Positions 16,674-27,440 of a stretch of DNA of 39,180 nucleotides are shown in pieces. The translations under genes were made by a program, and so were the position numbers. This DNA is from an uncultured Oscillospiraceae bacterium (GTDB lineage: Bacteria > Bacillota > Clostridia > Oscillospirales > Oscillospiraceae), in NCBI GenBank assembly GCA_947628805.1, contig CANRBG010000013.1:1-39180 (forward strand), given 5' to 3'. The first letter of the stretch is position 1. The number at the start of each line of letters is the position of its first letter. The notes beneath the pieces are model-generated. The model was not told where the DNA came from. It made no database searches and saw only the letters and a list, made by a program, of their open reading frames with translations.

Positions 16674-18326
16674 CTATGCGCCGGCGGGCTCTTCGGGGGG
16701 AGCGGCGCCGTTTTCCATATCGCCCTGGGGCATGTCGGGCGGCGTGTTGCCGTCCGGCTTTTCAGGGGGAGTCCCCTCTGTTTCCATGCCGCCCAGGGGC
16801 ATTTCCGGCGGGGTGCTGCCGTTGCCCGTGTCGCCTTGGGGCGGCTCAGGCGGGGTGCCGCCATTTTCCTTGCCGCCCTGGGGCATGTCGGGCGGTGTAC
16901 CGCCGTCGCCCATGCCGTTCATGCCGCCGGTGGTCCGCGAGCCGGTATTGACCTGGGCGTCCTCGAAAGCGGTGACCGTTCCCGCGCCGGAGAGATCGGC
17001 GGCGGCGTCATAGTCGGAGACGGTCACGGTATACTGGCTGTCGCCGCTGACATAGACGGTCCCGTCGGTCCCCTGGATCGTGACCGTATGGCCGTCCCCG
17101 TCCACGATGGTTCCCGCGTTGTGCAGGGAGGAAAGGACGCTGTCCCCGGTGACGACCCACCGGGAGTTCCCGTCGATGTAGAGCGCGGCATAGCCGTCGC
17201 CGCCGTCGCCCGCGCATCTCTCGTCCTGGACCACCGCACCGGTCAGCGTGCTGCCCTCGGTCACATACAGGTCAAGGCTGCTGATGGAGTCCCAGACCAC
17301 GTTCCCGCGCATATCCTGGCTGATGGCGGTGAAGGTGCAGTCCGCGCCGTTGCTGCCGGCCTGGCCCCAGCCCCGCTGGTTTTGGTTGCCGGTGCAGCGC
17401 AGGAAAAAGGGGCTGCCGTCGGCACAGACGATCCGGACGTCCTCCAGAATGAATGTGGATTCGGTGTTGGTGGTGTAGAACACCCCGCCGTTTTTAGCCG
17501 TCAGGGTGCCGCCAGTCATTTGGAAGGTGCTGTTGCCCACCTGGGAATCGCCGGACATGCTCTGGTAGAGGATCACGTTCCAGGTGCAGTCGTTTTGCTG
17601 GGAGTCGGGCATATCGCCGGACAGGTCGCAGTCGTAGAGATACAGGCTGTTCAGTCCCTCGATGCAGACCGCTTCGGAGCTGTTGGCGGTGAGCCCGGCA
17701 TTCTCGGCGGCGATGGTGGCCGTGCAGTAGACCGCCGGAGAGCCGGTGCCGTTGGAGGTGTAGTCGCCGCCGCTCACCACCATGAGCCCGCCGCCCCGGT
17801 CGGAGCGGATGGCGGCGGAGGATTCGCCCTCCGTGGTGGCGGTGACGTTGGTGGCGTACAGGGTGCCGCCCCCCGCAGCGTGGATGCCGCCCGAGGTGTC
17901 CCGGGCGGTGGCGATGGTGCTGTCGCTGATATGGACGACGCCGTCTCCGTAGGCGAAGACTCCCGCGCCGCCCTTGACGTCCGTGGTGATCTGAGCGTCT
18001 GTGATGTCCGCCGTGCCGCCGGTGGCGAGGATGGCCGCGCCGGTGCCATAGAAGCTGGCATTATCGCCCCCTGTTGAGTCGGCAGATGTGCGGTCCACGG
18101 TGATCTGGTCCAGCGTCACCGCACCATCCTCAATCAGGATGGCGTTTTCGTCCGTCCCGGTGGACGTATAGTCCTCCCCGGACACAGCCGTGTCCTCTCC
18201 GTAGGTCACAGCGGCGGTATAGTCTGCGGCCCCGGAAGAAGGCGCCGGCCCAACTGCGGCCTGGGCCGTCACGCCCAGACCCAGCAACATAGCCGCTGCC
18301 AATGCCAAACACAATGTCCTCTTCAT
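16674..18326 (-). CDS. Secreted beta-helix-like protein with Pro-rich C-terminal repeats
   Basis: The product has 550 residues. A signal peptide (MKRTLCLALAAAMLLGLGVT, cut near AQA) is followed by a long region rich in Gly, Thr, Ser and Asp with repeated short strands (AILIEDGAVTLDQI, GTADITDAQITTD, GVVHISDSTIAT, GTLYATNVTATT), the pattern of a right-handed parallel beta-helix. The last 84 residues (467-550) are about six imperfect TPPxMPQG-type repeats. There is no LPXTG, C-terminal membrane segment or S-layer domain, so attachment to the cell is unexplained. Similar beta-helix proteins bind glycans or act as adhesins, but no function can be assigned here. Ribosome site AAGAAGG precedes ATG 18326. 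Confidence 0.75.
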   Translation of the reverse strand: MKRTLCLALAAAMLLGLGVTAQAAVGPAPSSGAADYTAAVTYGEDTAVSGEDYTSTGTDENAILIEDGAVTLDQITVDRTSADSTGGDNASFYGTGAAILATGGTADITDAQITTDVKGGAGVFAYGDGVVHISDSTIATARDTSGGIHAAGGGTLYATNVTATTEGESSAAIRSDRGGGLMVVSGGDYTSNGTGSPAVYCTATIAAENAGLTANSSEAVCIEGLNSLYLYDCDLSGDMPDSQQNDCTWNVILYQSMSGDSQVGNSTFQMTGGTLTAKNGGVFYTTNTESTFILEDVRIVCADGSPFFLRCTGNQNQRGWGQAGSNGADCTFTAISQDMRGNVVWDSISSLDLYVTEGSTLTGAVVQDERCAGDGGDGYAALYIDGNSRWVVTGDSVLSSLHNAGTIVDGDGHTVTIQGTDGTVYVSGDSQYTVTVSDYDAAADLSGAGTVTAFEDAQVNTGSRTTGGMNGMGDGGTPPDMPQGGKENGGTPPEPPQGDTGNGSTPPEMPLGGMETEGTPPEKPDGNTPPDMPQGDMENGAAPPEEPAGA

Positions 18327-21805: not shown

Positions 21806-23263
21806 TTATGATCGATCTGTGCGGTCCGCCGCCGGGGCCCGGAGAGGGAAGGAAACGGTGAATTCGGTGCCGCCCTGGGGCCGGGGTGCCGCCTGGATGG
21901 TCCCGCCGTTGGCCACCACCGCGTCGTGGACGATGGCCAGGCCCAGACCGCTGCCGCCGGAGGCCCGGGAGCGGGCCTTGTCCACCCGGTAGAACCGGTC
22001 GAAGATATGCTCCATGTCCGCCTCCGGGATGCCGATGCCCGTGTCCGCCACGGTCAGCAGAGCCTGCCCGTCCGCCTGCCGGAGGGCCAGGTCCACGCTG
22101 CCGCCGGGGTGGTTGTATTTTACGGCGTTCTCCGCCAGATTGAAGATGATCTGATAGAGGTCGTCCGCCGACGCGGAGACCACGCAGCCCTCGGCCAGAT
22201 CCGTCCGCAGACGCACGTCCTGCTCCGCCGCCAGCGGCTCCAGCAGATGCAGGGTCCGCTCCGCCACGGCCTTCATGTCCACCGGCTCCGGCTGCCGGTC
22301 CGTCACGCCGGAGTCCAGCTTGGTCAGGGTCATGAGCTTTTCTGTGATGCGCTGGAGCCGGTATGCCTCCGCGCCGATATCCCGGGCGAATTCCCGCATG
22401 GTGTCCGGGTCCATACTGTCGGACTGGGTGATGCTGTCGGACAGCAGCCGTATGGCTGCCAGGGGCGTGCGCAGCTCGTGAGAGGCGTCGGAGACGAACC
22501 GGCGGCGGGCCTCCTCCGTGGCCTCCAGCCGGCCGGTCAGCACGTTGAATTCCTCCGCCAGCGCGGCCAGCTCGTCCTTGCCCCGGACCGTGATCCGGTG
22601 GCTGTAGTCCCCGCCGCGGACCACGTCCATGGCCTTGCTCAGCCGCTTGATCCGCCGGGTGAGGGTGGTGGAGATGACGATGATGATCACCAGGCCCGCC
22701 CCGCCGAACAGGGCGGACATGTTGCCCAGGTTCTGCTGCAGGCCGGCGATGATATCCCCCTGCTCGGTGTCGTACTCATAAAGATACACCGCCCCCGTCA
22801 CGCCCGCCGCCCCTGCCACCGGCACGGTGCACCGGCTGGTAAAGGACCCGGCGGTATAAGAGTAAGCGCAGGAGAACCGGGTGTATCCGCCCAGGGCCTC
22901 CTCCACGCCCCACAGGGGGCCGCCGTTGTCGGCGCCGCCGGTATCGTAGAGCACGCGCCCGTCCGGATCCGTGACCACCAGACGAGTCATGGGAGCCATG
23001 TCCAGAAGCTCCATGACCTGCTCCACATTCTCGGCGGAGAGCTTCTCCAGCGCGGAAAGGGAGCTGGAGATCACCGAGCCCTGGCTCTGCAGGGCGCTCC
23101 GCTTGGTGGCGAACACCATGTCCCGGCTGACGTAGATGGGGTAGATGTTCATAAAAAGCAGCAGCGCCGCCGTGAACAGGGAGAAGACCGCCGCGATCTT
23201 GAACCGGACGGAAACGATCCGCCGGACTTTTTTCCCCTCAGTCCTTGAAATAGTAACCCACAC
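21806..23263 (-). CDS. Membrane sensor histidine kinase
   Basis: Autophosphorylating sensor for the adjacent response regulator. The 485 residues show membrane segment 1 (about 22-42), an extracytoplasmic domain (about 46-183), membrane segment 2 (about 184-200), a HAMP linker, a HisKA box VSDASHELRTPLAAIR with phospho-acceptor H262, an N-box NLAENAVKYNH, and ATP-lid motifs DTGIGIP and SGGSGLGLAI. The domain order resembles PhoR/WalK-type kinases but without a PAS domain. The only usable start upstream of the first membrane segment is GTG 23263, which overlaps the regulator gene by 26 bases; no ATG is available, so this start is uncertain. Signal unknown. Confidence 0.92.
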   Translation of the reverse strand: MWVTISRTEGKKVRRIVSVRFKIAAVFSLFTAALLLFMNIYPIYVSRDMVFATKRSALQSQGSVISSSLSALEKLSAENVEQVMELLDMAPMTRLVVTDPDGRVLYDTGGADNGGPLWGVEEALGGYTRFSCAYSYTAGSFTSRCTVPVAGAAGVTGAVYLYEYDTEQGDIIAGLQQNLGNMSALFGGAGLVIIIVISTTLTRRIKRLSKAMDVVRGGDYSHRITVRGKDELAALAEEFNVLTGRLEATEEARRRFVSDASHELRTPLAAIRLLSDSITQSDSMDPDTMREFARDIGAEAYRLQRITEKLMTLTKLDSGVTDRQPEPVDMKAVAERTLHLLEPLAAEQDVRLRTDLAEGCVVSASADDLYQIIFNLAENAVKYNHPGGSVDLALRQADGQALLTVADTGIGIPEADMEHIFDRFYRVDKARSRASGGSGLGLAIVHDAVVANGGTIQAAPRPQGGTEFTVSFPLRAPAADRTDRS

Positions 23264-23921
23264 CCCACTTGGTGATGATACATTCCGGCGCGGCCGGGTC
23301 CCGTTCCAGCTTCTCCCGCAGTCTTCGGATGTGCACGTCCACCGTGCGGATATCCCCCTGGTAGTCGTAGCCCCAGACCAGGTCCAGCAGATTCTCCCGG
23401 GAATAGACCTTGCCGGGATTGCGCATGAGAAGCTCCACCAGGTCGAACTCCTTCACCGTCAGCTCCACGGGCTTTCCGTCCGCCAGGGCGGAGCGGCGCT
23501 CCCGGTCGATGGTGATATGCCCCCGGGTCAGCCTGCCCTCCGGCTCACCGGCCCCGGGCTGGAGCCCGGCCCGGCGCAGCAGCGCCCGTACCCGGGCTTT
23601 CAGCTCCAGGATGTTGAAGGGCTTGGTGACGTAGTCGTCGGCCCCGTACTCAAAGCCGATGAGCTTGTCCGTATCCTCGCCCTTGGCCGTCAGCATGATG
23701 ATGGGCACGGTGGAGAACTCCCGTATCTTCATACAGGCGCTCAGCCCATCCAGCTTTGGCATCATCAGATCCAGCAGGATCAGGCCGTAGCCGCCGGACC
23801 GGGCCATGTCCACCGCCGTCTGTCCGTCATAGCAGACGTCTACCTCGTAGCCCTCGTTTTCCAGATTGAATTTGATCCCCTTGACGAGCAGCTCCTCGTC
23901 GTCCACCACCAGGATCTTCAT
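23238..23921 (-). CDS. OmpR/PhoB-family response regulator
   Basis: The product has 227 residues. Receiver domain with the acidic pocket VVDDEE, phospho-acceptor D51 in LILLDLMMPK, the LTAKG threonine segment and TKPF lysine; then a winged-helix DNA-binding domain (VELTVKEFDLVELLMRNPGK, RTVDVHIRRLREKLE, WGVGYYF). ATG 23921 follows GAGGTG by 7 bases; a GTG five codons upstream is within the comEA stop region. It is 11 bases downstream of the comEA-like gene and overlaps the kinase gene, so all three are one transcript. Targets are not known; the divergent S11-like gene next door is one candidate. Confidence 0.95.
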   Translation of the reverse strand: MKILVVDDEELLVKGIKFNLENEGYEVDVCYDGQTAVDMARSGGYGLILLDLMMPKLDGLSACMKIREFSTVPIIMLTAKGEDTDKLIGFEYGADDYVTKPFNILELKARVRALLRRAGLQPGAGEPEGRLTRGHITIDRERRSALADGKPVELTVKEFDLVELLMRNPGKVYSRENLLDLVWGYDYQGDIRTVDVHIRRLREKLERDPAAPECIITKWGVGYYFKD

Positions 23922-23932
23922 GTTGACGCACC

Positions 23933-24280
23933 TCACTCATAACGGATGAACGGTCCGACGGCCTGGCACAGGGCGGGACCCACGCCGGACACCCGCAGCA
24001 GGTCCTCCGGCCCGGAAAAGGGACCGTGCTCTTCCCGCCAGGCCAGGATGCGCCCCGCCAGGGCGGGGCCGATGCCCGGCAGTTCCTCCAGCTCCGCGGC
24101 GGTGGCCGTATTCACGTTCAGCGGAGCCTGCCGCTGCCGGACGGCGCTCTCCGCCGGGGAGAATGTCGCCGGCTGCATGTCCCGCCGGTCCAGGGCATAC
24201 CACCCCAGCGCCCCGGCCGCCAGCAGCCCTGTCCCGACCCACGCGGCCCACAGACGGGCCTTCTGACCTTTATCGGACAT
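23933..24280 (-). CDS. ComEA-like membrane-anchored helix-hairpin-helix protein
   Basis: The product has 115 residues. An N-terminal membrane segment (about 9-28) precedes a linker and a double helix-hairpin-helix domain: NVNTATAAELEELPGIGPAL and EDLLRVSGVGPALCQAV. ComEA is the surface DNA receptor in natural transformation. This copy lacks the SLBB domain of B. subtilis ComEA, and no comEB or comEC follows, so the com role is an inference. ATG 24280 has no clear ribosome site. It heads the regulator-kinase pair. Confidence 0.82.
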   Translation of the reverse strand: MSDKGQKARLWAAWVGTGLLAAGALGWYALDRRDMQPATFSPAESAVRQRQAPLNVNTATAAELEELPGIGPALAGRILAWREEHGPFSGPEDLLRVSGVGPALCQAVGPFIRYE

Positions 24281-24306
24281 TTCGGAAAGTTTTCATAAAA
24301 CAGTGG

Positions 24307-24335
24307 TTGCTTTTCCATTGGATTTTTTTTATAAT
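24307..24335 (+). promoter_or_regulatory. Promoter for the S11-like gene
   Basis: TTGCTT (24307-24312), a 17-base spacer ending in a T-tract and a perfect TATAAT (24330-24335), about 57 bases before the start codon. Confidence 0.8.
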
Positions 24336-24391
24336 GGGATGAAAAGCATCTGCCTTTGTGTACATCATATCATACTTTTCCGGAGAATGAC

Positions 24392-26182
24392 ATGAAAAAA
24401 TTCAAGCTGCTGTCCCTTCTTCTGATCATATCGCTGTTTGCCGCCGTTTTGCCCGTTCCGGCCCTGGCGCTGGACACGCCGGAGCTGTGGGCCCAGTCGG
24501 CGGTGATCATGGACGCCGTCTCGGGAGAGGTGCTGTTCCAGATAAACGGGACCCGGTCCGTGGATGCCGGCAACCTGACAAGACTGATGACCGTGCTGCT
24601 GGTGAGCGACGCCATCCAGCGGCAGGACATCTCTTTGGACGACGCCGTCACCGCGTCGGATACGTTCGGATACAACTTTACGGCGGACAGCTTTTTTGCC
24701 AGTCCGGCCATCGTGCCCGGGGAGACGCTCACCGTGAAAGATCTGCTCTATCTGTCGTTGTTCCAGGTGGCGGAGGACGCCTCCAACATCCTGGCGGAGT
24801 ATGTGGGCGGCACCGTGGAGGCTTTCGTGGAGAGCATGAATACACGGGCGGCGGAGCTGGGCTGCGTCAATACCCACTTCTCCAACGCCAACGGCGTGCT
24901 GGCGGCGGACAACTACACCTCCGCCGGCGACGTGGCCCTCATGGCCCAGGCTGTCTTTGCGGACGAGACGCTGCGCGGCATTTTGTCGGACGCCTCCTAT
25001 ACCACGGATCCCACCGAATTCAACGAGCCCAGGACCGTTGCCAATATAAATGGCCAGCAGATCGACGGCAACAGCGCGAGATATGAATACGCAACGGTGG
25101 GCGTGCTGGGCAGCAGCGTGCAGGACGGCAATATACTGGGTCTTGATATCGCGGAGGAGGGTCTGTATAACGAGATGAGAGTCATCGTGGTGGCGCTGGA
25201 CTGCCCCGATGTTGACAGCCGGTATTCCGACGCCGTCACCATGTTCAAATGGATCTTTGACAATTTCAGCTACCGTGTGCTTCTCAGCTCCACCGATATC
25301 CTGACCACCATCCCCGTACAGATGGGCAATCCCGGGGAGGTGAGCGTCCGGGCGGAGACGCCGGTCCGCATCATCCGCCCCGCCGATCAGCAGATCGGCG
25401 AGATCACCTACGAGGTGAGCTACCAGCATGAGAAAGAGGGCAAGGCCCTGGTGGCCCCCATCGAGGTGGGGACGTACCTGGGCGAGGTGACGGTGTATAT
25501 GAACGGCGTCCCCTACGGTACCTCCCGTCTGGTGGCCGGCGCGGCGGTGGATATCTCCCGGATGGAGTACCTGCAGAGCCAGATGTCCGTACTGAGCCAG
25601 ACGGAGTCCGTCCGCCAGATCATAAAGGTCTTGATCATCGTCTTTTGCATATATCTGCTGCTGGTGTGCATCTACCTGTTCCAGCGGGTCCGGCATATGC
25701 ACAGCCTGCGCAAGGCCCGGCGGGAACGGTCCCGGACCCGGGCCCAGCAGGAGGTGGAGTGGCTGGATATCCCGGCGGAGGACGGCCAGGGACCCGCCGC
25801 GGGGTATATCCCCCAGCCGGCCATGGCCCCGGCGGAGGAGCCGCCCGCCGACGGCGGCCAGTACCCCGGGGAGAGCGAGCCCTCCGACGAAGGTCAGTAC
25901 GTCGATGAAAACCCGTATGTTGACCAGGGCCAGTACGCCGACCAAGGCCCGTATGCCGATCCGGAAGAGCGGGCGGCCGAAGGCCAGTACGCTGACGAGG
26001 GCCAGTACGCCGACGAGGGTCAGTACGCCGACGAAGGCCAGTACGCTGACGAGGGCCAGTACGCCGACGAAGGCCAGTACGCTGACGAGGGCCAGTACGC
26101 CGACGAGGGTCAGTACGCCGACGAGGACCAGTACCCTGACGGTCAGGATGGCTATTACGACGACGAGCCGCCCCGCCGCTGA
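24392..26182 (+). CDS. Catalytically degenerate S11 (DacA-type) membrane protein with hexapeptide repeat tail
   Basis: The product has 596 residues. Signal peptide (1-27, cut near ALA), then an S11 D-Ala-D-Ala carboxypeptidase-type domain recognisable by SAVIMDAVSGEVLF, LTVKDLL, AFVESMNTRAAELG and NTHFSNANGV. All three catalytic motifs are altered: SxxK is N61-L-T-R64, SxN is V126-A-E128, and the KTG region reads GVLGSS (about 237-242). A beta-rich region with VSYQHEKEGKALVAPI resembles the PBP5 C-terminal domain. One membrane segment (about 411-430) and a basic flank (RVRHMHSLRKARRERSR) place the C-terminus in the cytoplasm. That tail ends in EGQYAD repeats. ATG 24392 follows GGAG; an upstream ATG at 24356 would spoil the signal peptide. 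Probably binds rather than cuts peptidoglycan (inference). Confidence 0.88.
   Translation: MKKFKLLSLLLIISLFAAVLPVPALALDTPELWAQSAVIMDAVSGEVLFQINGTRSVDAGNLTRLMTVLLVSDAIQRQDISLDDAVTASDTFGYNFTADSFFASPAIVPGETLTVKDLLYLSLFQVAEDASNILAEYVGGTVEAFVESMNTRAAELGCVNTHFSNANGVLAADNYTSAGDVALMAQAVFADETLRGILSDASYTTDPTEFNEPRTVANINGQQIDGNSARYEYATVGVLGSSVQDGNILGLDIAEEGLYNEMRVIVVALDCPDVDSRYSDAVTMFKWIFDNFSYRVLLSSTDILTTIPVQMGNPGEVSVRAETPVRIIRPADQQIGEITYEVSYQHEKEGKALVAPIEVGTYLGEVTVYMNGVPYGTSRLVAGAAVDISRMEYLQSQMSVLSQTESVRQIIKVLIIVFCIYLLLVCIYLFQRVRHMHSLRKARRERSRTRAQQEVEWLDIPAEDGQGPAAGYIPQPAMAPAEEPPADGGQYPGESEPSDEGQYVDENPYVDQGQYADQGPYADPEERAAEGQYADEGQYADEGQYADEGQYADEGQYADEGQYADEGQYADEGQYADEDQYPDGQDGYYDDEPPRR
25889..26140 (+). 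repeat. 18-bp coding tandem repeat (14 units)
   Basis: Fourteen in-phase 18-bp units encode six-residue steps. The first five are degenerate (EGQYVD, ENPYVD, QGQYAD, QGPYAD, PEERAA), the next eight (25979-26122) are all EGQYAD and the last is EDQYPD. The eight perfect protein units differ only at synonymous third positions (GAA/GAG, GGC/GGT, GCC/GCT), so the peptide is conserved more strictly than the DNA. Confidence 0.95.
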
Positions 26183-26197
26183 TCAAATAGAATAGGT

Positions 26198-26234
26198 AAA
26201 GACCGAAGAGCGCCGCGCTCTTCGGTCTTTTTTA
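26198..26234. terminator. Strong bidirectional terminator
   Basis: A perfect 15-bp stem AAAGACCGAAGAGCG/CGCTCTTCGGTCTTT with a 3-base loop, flanked by A's and T's on both sides, between the S11-like gene and the convergent AraC-family gene. Confidence 0.92.
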
Positions 26235-27440
26235 TCGGTTTGCGGCCCGGTATGCGGTAGGAGAGCAGCCGATGTGCTTTTTAAACAGCGCGCTGAAATA
26301 GTGGGCGTCCCGAAAGCCGGCGGCTCGGGCTGTCTGCCCGATGGGCAGGTCCGTTTCGCGCAGCAGCCGCTTGGCCAGATCCAGGCGTCTTTCCGTCAGA
26401 AGATCGGTGAAAGTGCGGCCCAGTTCCCGGCGGAACAGGGCGGACAGATAGCTGGGCGTGAGGCCGGCGCAGCCGGCGGCGTCCGCCAGCGTGAGTCCCG
26501 GGTCCGCCTCGCGGCGGCGGATATAGTCCAGCGCCCGGCCCAACGGTCCGGTCCGGTCCGGTCCGATCTCCGCATCCCGCAGGGCCATGGCCCCGGTCAG
26601 GATCGCCTCCGCACTCCGGAGCACGTCCGCTCCGTCTTCCGGCTCCGCCCAGGGGGGCAGATTCTCGTCGATTCGCTCCGGGGACACCCCCAGAGCGGCC
26701 AGGGCCCTGACGGCGGCGAAGCGGACGCTGAGGACCGCGTAATGCCGGAAAGGCCGGAAATCCATGCCCCCTGCCAGGCCCGCAAGCCACCGCTCCGTGA
26801 AAGCGGGGACATCCTCCGGCGCACCCGACTCCAGGAGCTCCCGCAGGGGGGCCGGATCGGTCCCGGCAGGGTCTGCGGCCAGCAGGGCGTTCTCGTCGCC
26901 GGGTCCGGCGGGCATGTCTGCCATGCCCGGGCCCAGCACATGCAGGTCCGGCCGCATGAATCGCCAGGCCCACAGCCGGGACAGCTCCCGCCAGCGGTCC
27001 GGCAGATCCTCCAGCCGGGAGACGGGGCGGCCCACGGCGATGTGCCAGCTCCGGATACCGCCGCGCCCGAACCGGTCCCGCACCGTCTCCACACATCGGC
27101 CGATCAGCTCCGGCAGAGACGGGCCGCCCTGGATCAGCACCGCGAACAGCGTGGCGCTGCAGGGGAACAGCTCGTACTCGGAATATTTCATGAAGTATGC
27201 CAGCAGCTGGCTGCGGACCTGACTGGCCGGGTCGGAGAAGAAGTCCGCCGGGCTGCCGGGGGACAGGGGCAGTTCCAGCAGCGCCAGGGCGTAATCGGGC
27301 CCGTCCAGCTCTATATCCAGCCGCCGGGCGGTCTGGCGGGCCTGTGAGGGTGTGAGAAGCCCCGCCGTCAGCCGGTCGAAGAACCACCGGCGCACATAAG
27401 GGGCCAGCTCCGGGTCCTGCAGGATGTCTTCCAGGGGCAT
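26232..27440 (-). CDS. AraC-family transcriptional regulator
   Basis: The product has 402 residues. The C-terminal 100 residues are a double helix-turn-helix AraC domain (ALDYIRRREADPGLTLADAA, TPSYLSALFRRELGRTFTDL, then IGQTARAAGFRDAHYFSALF and KKHIGCSPTAYR). The first 300 residues show no receiver or cupin that I recognise; their start (PYVRRWFFDRLTAGLLT, YALALLELPL) resembles the middle region of YesN-type regulators. AAAGGAGG precedes ATG 27440. It lies 21 bases downstream of araR on the same transcript and opposite the arabinose operon, so a role in pentose or arabinan response is likely but unproven. Confidence 0.85.
   Translation of the reverse strand: MPLEDILQDPELAPYVRRWFFDRLTAGLLTPSQARQTARRLDIELDGPDYALALLELPLSPGSPADFFSDPASQVRSQLLAYFMKYSEYELFPCSATLFAVLIQGGPSLPELIGRCVETVRDRFGRGGIRSWHIAVGRPVSRLEDLPDRWRELSRLWAWRFMRPDLHVLGPGMADMPAGPGDENALLAADPAGTDPAPLRELLESGAPEDVPAFTERWLAGLAGGMDFRPFRHYAVLSVRFAAVRALAALGVSPERIDENLPPWAEPEDGADVLRSAEAILTGAMALRDAEIGPDRTGPLGRALDYIRRREADPGLTLADAAGCAGLTPSYLSALFRRELGRTFTDLLTERRLDLAKRLLRETDLPIGQTARAAGFRDAHYFSALFKKHIGCSPTAYRAANR

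Follow-up and report, generated by a model that had tools for sequence, protein, structure and literature searches.

The stretch of DNA analysed here, hereafter the window, spans 39,180 nucleotides and constitutes the whole of contig CANRBG010000013.1 (positions 1-39,180, forward strand; assembly GCA_947628805.1) from an uncultured Oscillospiraceae bacterium, whose own genome amounts to 1.72 Mb at 82% completeness. The gene of interest is an open reading frame on the plus strand with its ATG at 24392 (24392..26182), which encodes 596 residues and was assigned as a family S11 pseudo-D,D-carboxypeptidase with the help of Pfam and the orthologs of the genus. Divergent from it on the minus strand are the genes of a ComEA-like helix-hairpin-helix (HHH) protein (23933..24280; HHH_3, E 1.5e-19), an OmpR-type response regulator (23238..23936) and a histidine kinase (21806..23263), the latter two identified by profile match and found to be linked by locus comparison, together with an M24 peptidase and EF-P. 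A promoter and terminator scan covered 24200-26300, and no result from it is used here. Elsewhere in the window, a 42-bp unit is repeated in 3.2 copies at 16784-16917, within a minus-strand open reading frame at 16674-18326.

The protein begins with an export signal (residues 1-26; 24392..24469, plus strand like all parts of the gene), read from the sequence and accompanied by a low-confidence model helix at residues 3-17. The S11 domain follows (residues 28-291; 24473..25264), in which the Peptidase_S11 profile of Pfam matches residues 28-192 (E 1.8e-33; 116.4 bits against a curated cut-off of 27.6) and the predicted fold of residues 27-291 matches solved S11 enzymes at an rmsd of 1.9-2.0 (VIA-align); by this modelled fold the protein is a member of peptidase family S11. 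A PBP5_C-like domain (residues 292-386; 25265..25549; Pfam E 3.4e-6) precedes the only hydrophobic segment in the hydropathy profile, at about residues 410-428 (25619..25675; model helix 405-454), which is succeeded by a basic juxtamembrane flank with an EWLDIP box (residues 429-461; 25676..25774), conserved by majority frequency and by omega. The chain ends in an acidic Tyr/Gln-rich tail (25787..26179), which holds a tandem array of EGQYAD units (25846..26134; repeat scan, 18-bp unit, 16.1 copies). The tail is predicted to be cytoplasmic from the charge pattern, that is, one hydrophobic segment with a basic flank after it.

All three catalytic motifs of active S11 enzymes are degenerate in this scaffold. 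In the alignment SxxK reads N61-L-T-R64 (24572..24583), SxN reads V126-A-E128 (24767..24775) and KTG reads V238-L-G240 (25103..25111). In the predicted fold N61-R64 occupies the place of the nucleophile at the start of helix 60-76, and a scan of the window ectodomain for SxxK elsewhere found none. The first-pass annotation of this DNA, made from the letters alone, had described an exported single-span protein with an S11 scaffold, three degenerate motifs, a basic flank and an acidic tail inside, and had left room for an intact triad elsewhere in the chain; the profile, fold, alignment and hydropathy agree with its description, and the ectodomain scan yields no SxxK from which such a triad could be built. 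A four-residue insertion, GNIL (residues 246-249; 25127..25138), is unique to the window among the 35 genus orthologs.

An ortholog is present in 35 of 35 genus genomes, the other 34 being 42-75% identical in a search with the window protein; in G228 the contig stops within the gene. Of the 35, 10 have the full set of Ser, Lys, SxN and KTG. Ser61, Lys64 and Asn128 each occur in 10/10 of these active members and in 0/25 of the remaining species, hereafter motif-less, and the loss being common to 25 species rules out both a decay confined to the window strain, by which the first-pass annotation would have been refuted, and an assembly artefact. Other parts of the motifs are partially retained by the 25 (S126 in 19, K238 in 16, T239 in 12 and G240 in 14). 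No replacement is favoured, since seven residue types (N, A, G, T, E, V, F) are met at the Ser position and eight at the Lys position; the proposal that N61 and R64 might themselves be conserved accordingly failed, each being found in one of the 25.

In a genus tree built with the motif columns left out and 15 family outgroups, one of which (L033) is itself Ser-less, the 25 motif-less rows form one clade (support 100/99) nested among active genus members and outgroups. The most plausible reading is that the nucleophile was lost in one early event, with KTG and the SxN Ser eroding later and unevenly within the clade. Two other S11 genes of the window genome, both on other contigs, keep all motifs, and in all 25 motif-less genomes the two S11 genes that score next best are intact, giving 50 of 50 cases, 49 by pattern and one by direct reading (IASTTKIMS, SGND, KTG). 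The loss is therefore specific to this locus among the S11 genes read, further S11 matches existing in G209, G220, G227, G230 and G231.

It can be gathered from the codon analysis that the motif-less protein is under purifying selection, relaxed but not free. Twenty-four of the 25 motif-less frames are open to the stop codon and the remaining one runs off its contig. Under a GY codon model with a single omega, the ten active rows gave 0.048 for the S11 domain and the 25 motif-less rows 0.129 (about 2.7-fold weaker constraint). For the C-domain the values are 0.045 (active) and 0.148 (24 motif-less rows), and for residues 401-465, which hold the membrane part and the flank, 0.051 (active) and 0.074 (24 motif-less rows). 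Omega = 1, compared at the best of four kappas, was rejected in every set (2dlnL 228 to 1428; in motif-less rows 1428 for the S11 domain and 379 for the membrane and basic part). Pairwise NG86 ratios over 13 pairs were mostly low, the highest in single motif-less pairs being 0.55 for S11, 0.88 for the C-domain and 0.67 for the transmembrane part.

What is retained is concentrated in the fold core and next to the membrane. Residues kept in at least 90% of motif-less rows include G45, F145, M149-N150, A153, L156-G157-C158, F163, G168, D180 and N220 in the S11 core, and Y428, Q431-R432, H435, R440, A442, R446, E454 and W457 in the flank. Going from active to motif-less rows, the S11 domain drops in mean majority frequency from 0.77 to 0.60, the C-domain from 0.75 to 0.68 and residues 401-430, which hold the membrane segment, from 0.81 to 0.66, with no drop over residues 431-460 (0.74 to 0.77). 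Relative to its neighbours, the S11 protein has a mean protein distance ratio of 3.35 in motif-less against 1.38 in active pairs for PepP, 27.6 against 5.2 for EFP and 2.2 against 1.6 for the histidine kinase; it is level for ComEA (1.00 against 0.96, one active pair) and runs against the trend for the response regulator (1.84 against 3.62), whose set probably holds non-orthologous hits. These ratios rest on 36-55 motif-less pairs and no more than 6 active ones.

The divergent pairing of ComEA with the S11 gene was found in 19 of 20 fetched loci, L096 being the exception. At 15 other loci, comprising 14 Ser-less ones and G176, which there has Ser and is devoid of KTG, the kinase and/or regulator is present in 13 and ComEA in 10; as judged from these sequences the linkage is old and wide. 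Nevertheless, both kinase and regulator are absent from three of 12 motif-less loci (G221, G217, G211) that retain the S11 gene, which argues against an obligatory local partnership. The first-pass suggestion that the divergent comEA-regulator-kinase transcript could be a partner thus agrees with the arrangement of the genes, and kinase and regulator would at most be non-obligatory local partners. At L084, L085 and L087 there is no histidine kinase or regulator between ComEA and the M24 peptidase.

The tail, predicted to be cytoplasmic, is acidic throughout the motif-less clade and diverse in its design. The 24 closed motif-less tails comprise 65-298 residues and are 27-47% D or E, with the count starting 30 residues after the membrane segment. 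Tyr-acidic repeats of several designs are seen in the window and in G218, G216, G230, G211, G209, G231, G212 and G227, and DDYDDY stretches are already present in some active genus members. As the designs vary, the EGQYAD array is best read as a recent expansion and not as a conserved signal; conservation of the repeat tail, which the first pass had put up for testing, holds in kind for some relatives only. Three motif-less tails (L036, L047, L053) finish, after long acidic repeats, in basic-aromatic stretches that resemble one another (KRRWWRR, KRRWWKRR and KRHWWKRK).

In the genus, the active orthologs whose tail is closed, eight in number, all terminate in D[YF]FDSFF, a motif that the window tail lacks. 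It persists as DYFDSYF in four of the 24 closed motif-less tails, with NYFDTYF in two more, and a slightly wider pattern matches 21 of the 27 family rows in the first batch and 5 of the 60 in the second. A D[YF]F[DE]xFF-like motif lies at or near the C-terminus in L007-L021, L024, L026, L028, L030, L032 and L033, and likewise in L005, L006, L055, L057, L059, L060, L071 and L074. A docking motif shared with other proteins was considered and rejected: across 120 genomes the D[YF]F[DE]xFF pattern occurred at 35 places in 30 genomes, 15 by position in this gene and 20 elsewhere, and the pattern read backwards as a control occurred at 18 places. With no excess outside the S11 gene, no common partner is suggested. 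Phosphorylation of the tail by a BY-kinase was also discarded, as TIGR01007 scores above its cut-off in 17 of the 35 genus genomes and in none of the window genome (G000) and its closest relatives G218 and G216 (82, 97 and 87% complete).

Beyond the genus, 199 of 200 family genomes (own included; 196 of 197 outside the genus) contain a match. The best-scoring 87 of the 196 (27 + 60) were read, a non-random sample drawn with a query that is itself motif-less; a Ser-less domain was found in 15 of the 87, and Ser is kept in every domain read in the other 72. On a quick 123-row tree with SH-aLRT support only, the nucleophile is replaced at least nine times, eight changes being forced by starred branches, and a single origin of the 40 Ser-less rows is rejected (593 log units worse, p-AU 1.76e-5). 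These nine are changes of state, and we infer that they were losses. A group of three genomes (g12) has lost Ser and Lys with SxN and KTG altered, at an omega of 0.065, and a Ser-to-Asp group (g41/g43) gave 0.074 (five rows) against 0.058 in active controls (five rows).

A change of Ser need not equal a dead enzyme. The Asp group retains its Lys, and the g41/g43 clade (L033, L133, L136, L139, L153, L155) has a conserved PADTxK, SxN changed to SxD and K[TSA]G kept. G009 (L146) reads PSCISK, with a Cys in place of the nucleophile Ser, an intact SxN and KSG; this could be a cysteine variant, and the protein may have kept its activity. The order of loss may also differ from that in the window clade, as L163 (G176) keeps Ser-Lys and SSN and has lost KTG (IAS), and its sister row L182 (G008) has lost Ser and KTG. 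In G040 (L153) an intact S11 domain is fused to a following Ser-to-Asp S11 domain in one chain of 934 residues, and G190 holds two S11 matches in tandem.

The closest known systems are the class S11 low-molecular-weight PBPs, such as Escherichia coli PBP5 and PBP6, Pseudomonas aeruginosa PBP5 (4k91) and Staphylococcus aureus PBP4, from which the window protein differs in having neither Ser, Lys, Asn nor the KTG Lys and in carrying a membrane-spanning helix followed by an extended acidic tail. Active genus and family orthologs at the same locus resemble it in locus order, S11 domain, C-domain, membrane helix and basic flank; the ten of the genus differ in keeping all motifs and, where closed, in the tail terminus described above. 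Structural roles of PBPs are on record. According to the accessible text of PMC5656894, a catalytically dead Bacillus subtilis PBP 2B still supports division through a structural role, and in that of PMC12713402 the structural role of Clostridioides difficile SpoVD with a dead active site is only partly independent of its chemistry. Both cases share with our reading a PBP role that does not, or only partly, need the chemistry; they concern class B PBPs and laboratory mutants, whereas the present loss is natural and in an S11 protein. Enzyme folds without catalytic residues, as here, are also the subject of a survey counting 42 prokaryotic inactive serine-protease homologues (PMC2605481), which in its accessible part covers the trypsin, subtilisin, S12, Clp and Lon families and not S11.

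Since the catalytic centre is lost and the protein remains under selection, a structural rather than a chemical job is most likely. We therefore consider, with a probability of roughly 0.6, that this is a membrane-anchored pseudo-D,D-carboxypeptidase maintained as a non-catalytic scaffold, whose ectodomain is a docking module beside the wall synthesis machinery. An active S11 enzyme at this locus would have lost Ser, Lys and the SxN Asn once, in the ancestor of the 25 species, the chemistry being left to the other S11 enzymes of each genome; the protein would have survived because a non-catalytic job was already present or was gained. The folded ectodomain would then most likely dock beside the cell-wall synthesis machinery, held in place by the transmembrane helix and the basic flank, with the acidic tail as a flexible cytoplasmic extension. 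The loss, its single origin, the purifying selection, the intact paralogs and the conserved fold core and flank are read from the sequences, and the docking, the identity of its partner, the localisation, the tail function and the job itself are inferred from them.

The first-pass annotation had offered a peptidoglycan-binding sensor or a scaffold, and of the two the scaffold is favoured. As a sensor, the ectodomain would bind peptidoglycan or a beta-lactam in the old groove without hydrolysing it and signal through the tail or the neighbouring kinase, a role with which the retained fold, the KTG Lys (16/25), the SxN Ser (19/25) and the old kinase/regulator linkage are all compatible. The columns around the old pocket speak modestly against it. 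Eight thinned active rows share 100 invariant S11 columns. Scored in 21 thinned motif-less rows, the 21 near the motifs, a pocket set by sequence position and not by coordinates, keep the active residue at a mean of 0.39 and the other 79 at 0.71 (Mann-Whitney p 1e-4; Fisher on half-kept columns p 0.014). Excluding the seven catalytic positions left 0.43 (14 columns) against 0.71 (p 0.003, Fisher 0.049), and the motif segments alone gave a modest 0.45 against 0.69 (p 0.03, Fisher 0.44). Set beside the retention of core and flank, this is modest evidence that fold core and juxtamembrane flank, rather than a ligand groove, have been maintained; with the seven and eight residue types at the Ser and Lys positions and the pair absent from three of 12 loci, we regard the sensor as unlikely. 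Relocated catalytic residues are more doubtful by far: S11-like folds can in principle take other nucleophiles, and in G009, a relative outside the genus, a Cys stands in for the Ser, but the window ectodomain has no SxxK and the 25 share no replacement at Ser, Lys or Asn, so that a surviving enzyme is very improbable.

Under slow decay the gene would be that of a superfluous enzyme, in the course of being lost and held by inertia. The relaxed omega, the lower majority frequencies and the faster change than PepP, EFP and HK mean that part of the signal could indeed be of this kind, and two intact paralogs would render the protein enzymatically redundant. An omega of 0.129 is nonetheless far below 1, no frame is broken in the 24 closed orthologs, the gene persists in 35 of 35 genus genomes and the juxtamembrane flank is as well kept as in active rows, for which reasons decay as the whole explanation has a small chance. 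We rate no higher an allosteric or regulatory subunit, in which the dead copy would bind and control an active S11 enzyme or another PBP. Such a role is common for pseudoenzymes in the accessible text of PMC11266112 and PMC10211241, and the fused chain of G040 joins an intact with a Ser-to-Asp domain; both paralogs of the window genome, however, lie on other contigs.

Compared with these alternatives, the scaffold reading may extend beyond the clade. Tentatively, and at somewhat less than even odds, the S11 protein at this locus could be two-job throughout the Oscillospiraceae, as D,D-carboxypeptidase and as membrane scaffold. Its scaffold job would be indispensable, so that lineage after lineage, with at least nine origins, abandoned or altered the nucleophile without parting with the protein. 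The result would be a naturally recurrent S11 pseudoenzyme family whose cytoplasmic docking end comprises the basic flank, the EWLDIP box and, where kept, a DYF[DE]xFF terminus. In the open-access papers searched, judged by title and the start of the abstract, no account of S11 pseudoenzymes was found. D,D-carboxypeptidases are read as wall-trimming chemistry. Where a conserved locus loses that chemistry time and again and still retains its protein, nature supplies separation-of-function variants, with which one can ask how much of what a carboxypeptidase does for shape and division is structural. In gut Oscillospiraceae, moreover, a gene annotated as S11 need not encode a penicillin target. 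Outside the family, a shorter S11-like match in a metagenome-assembled genome of Candidatus Blautia merdipullorum (L070), in which LGRLGQ replaces the SxxK region, is apparently another motif-less S11 by its sequence.
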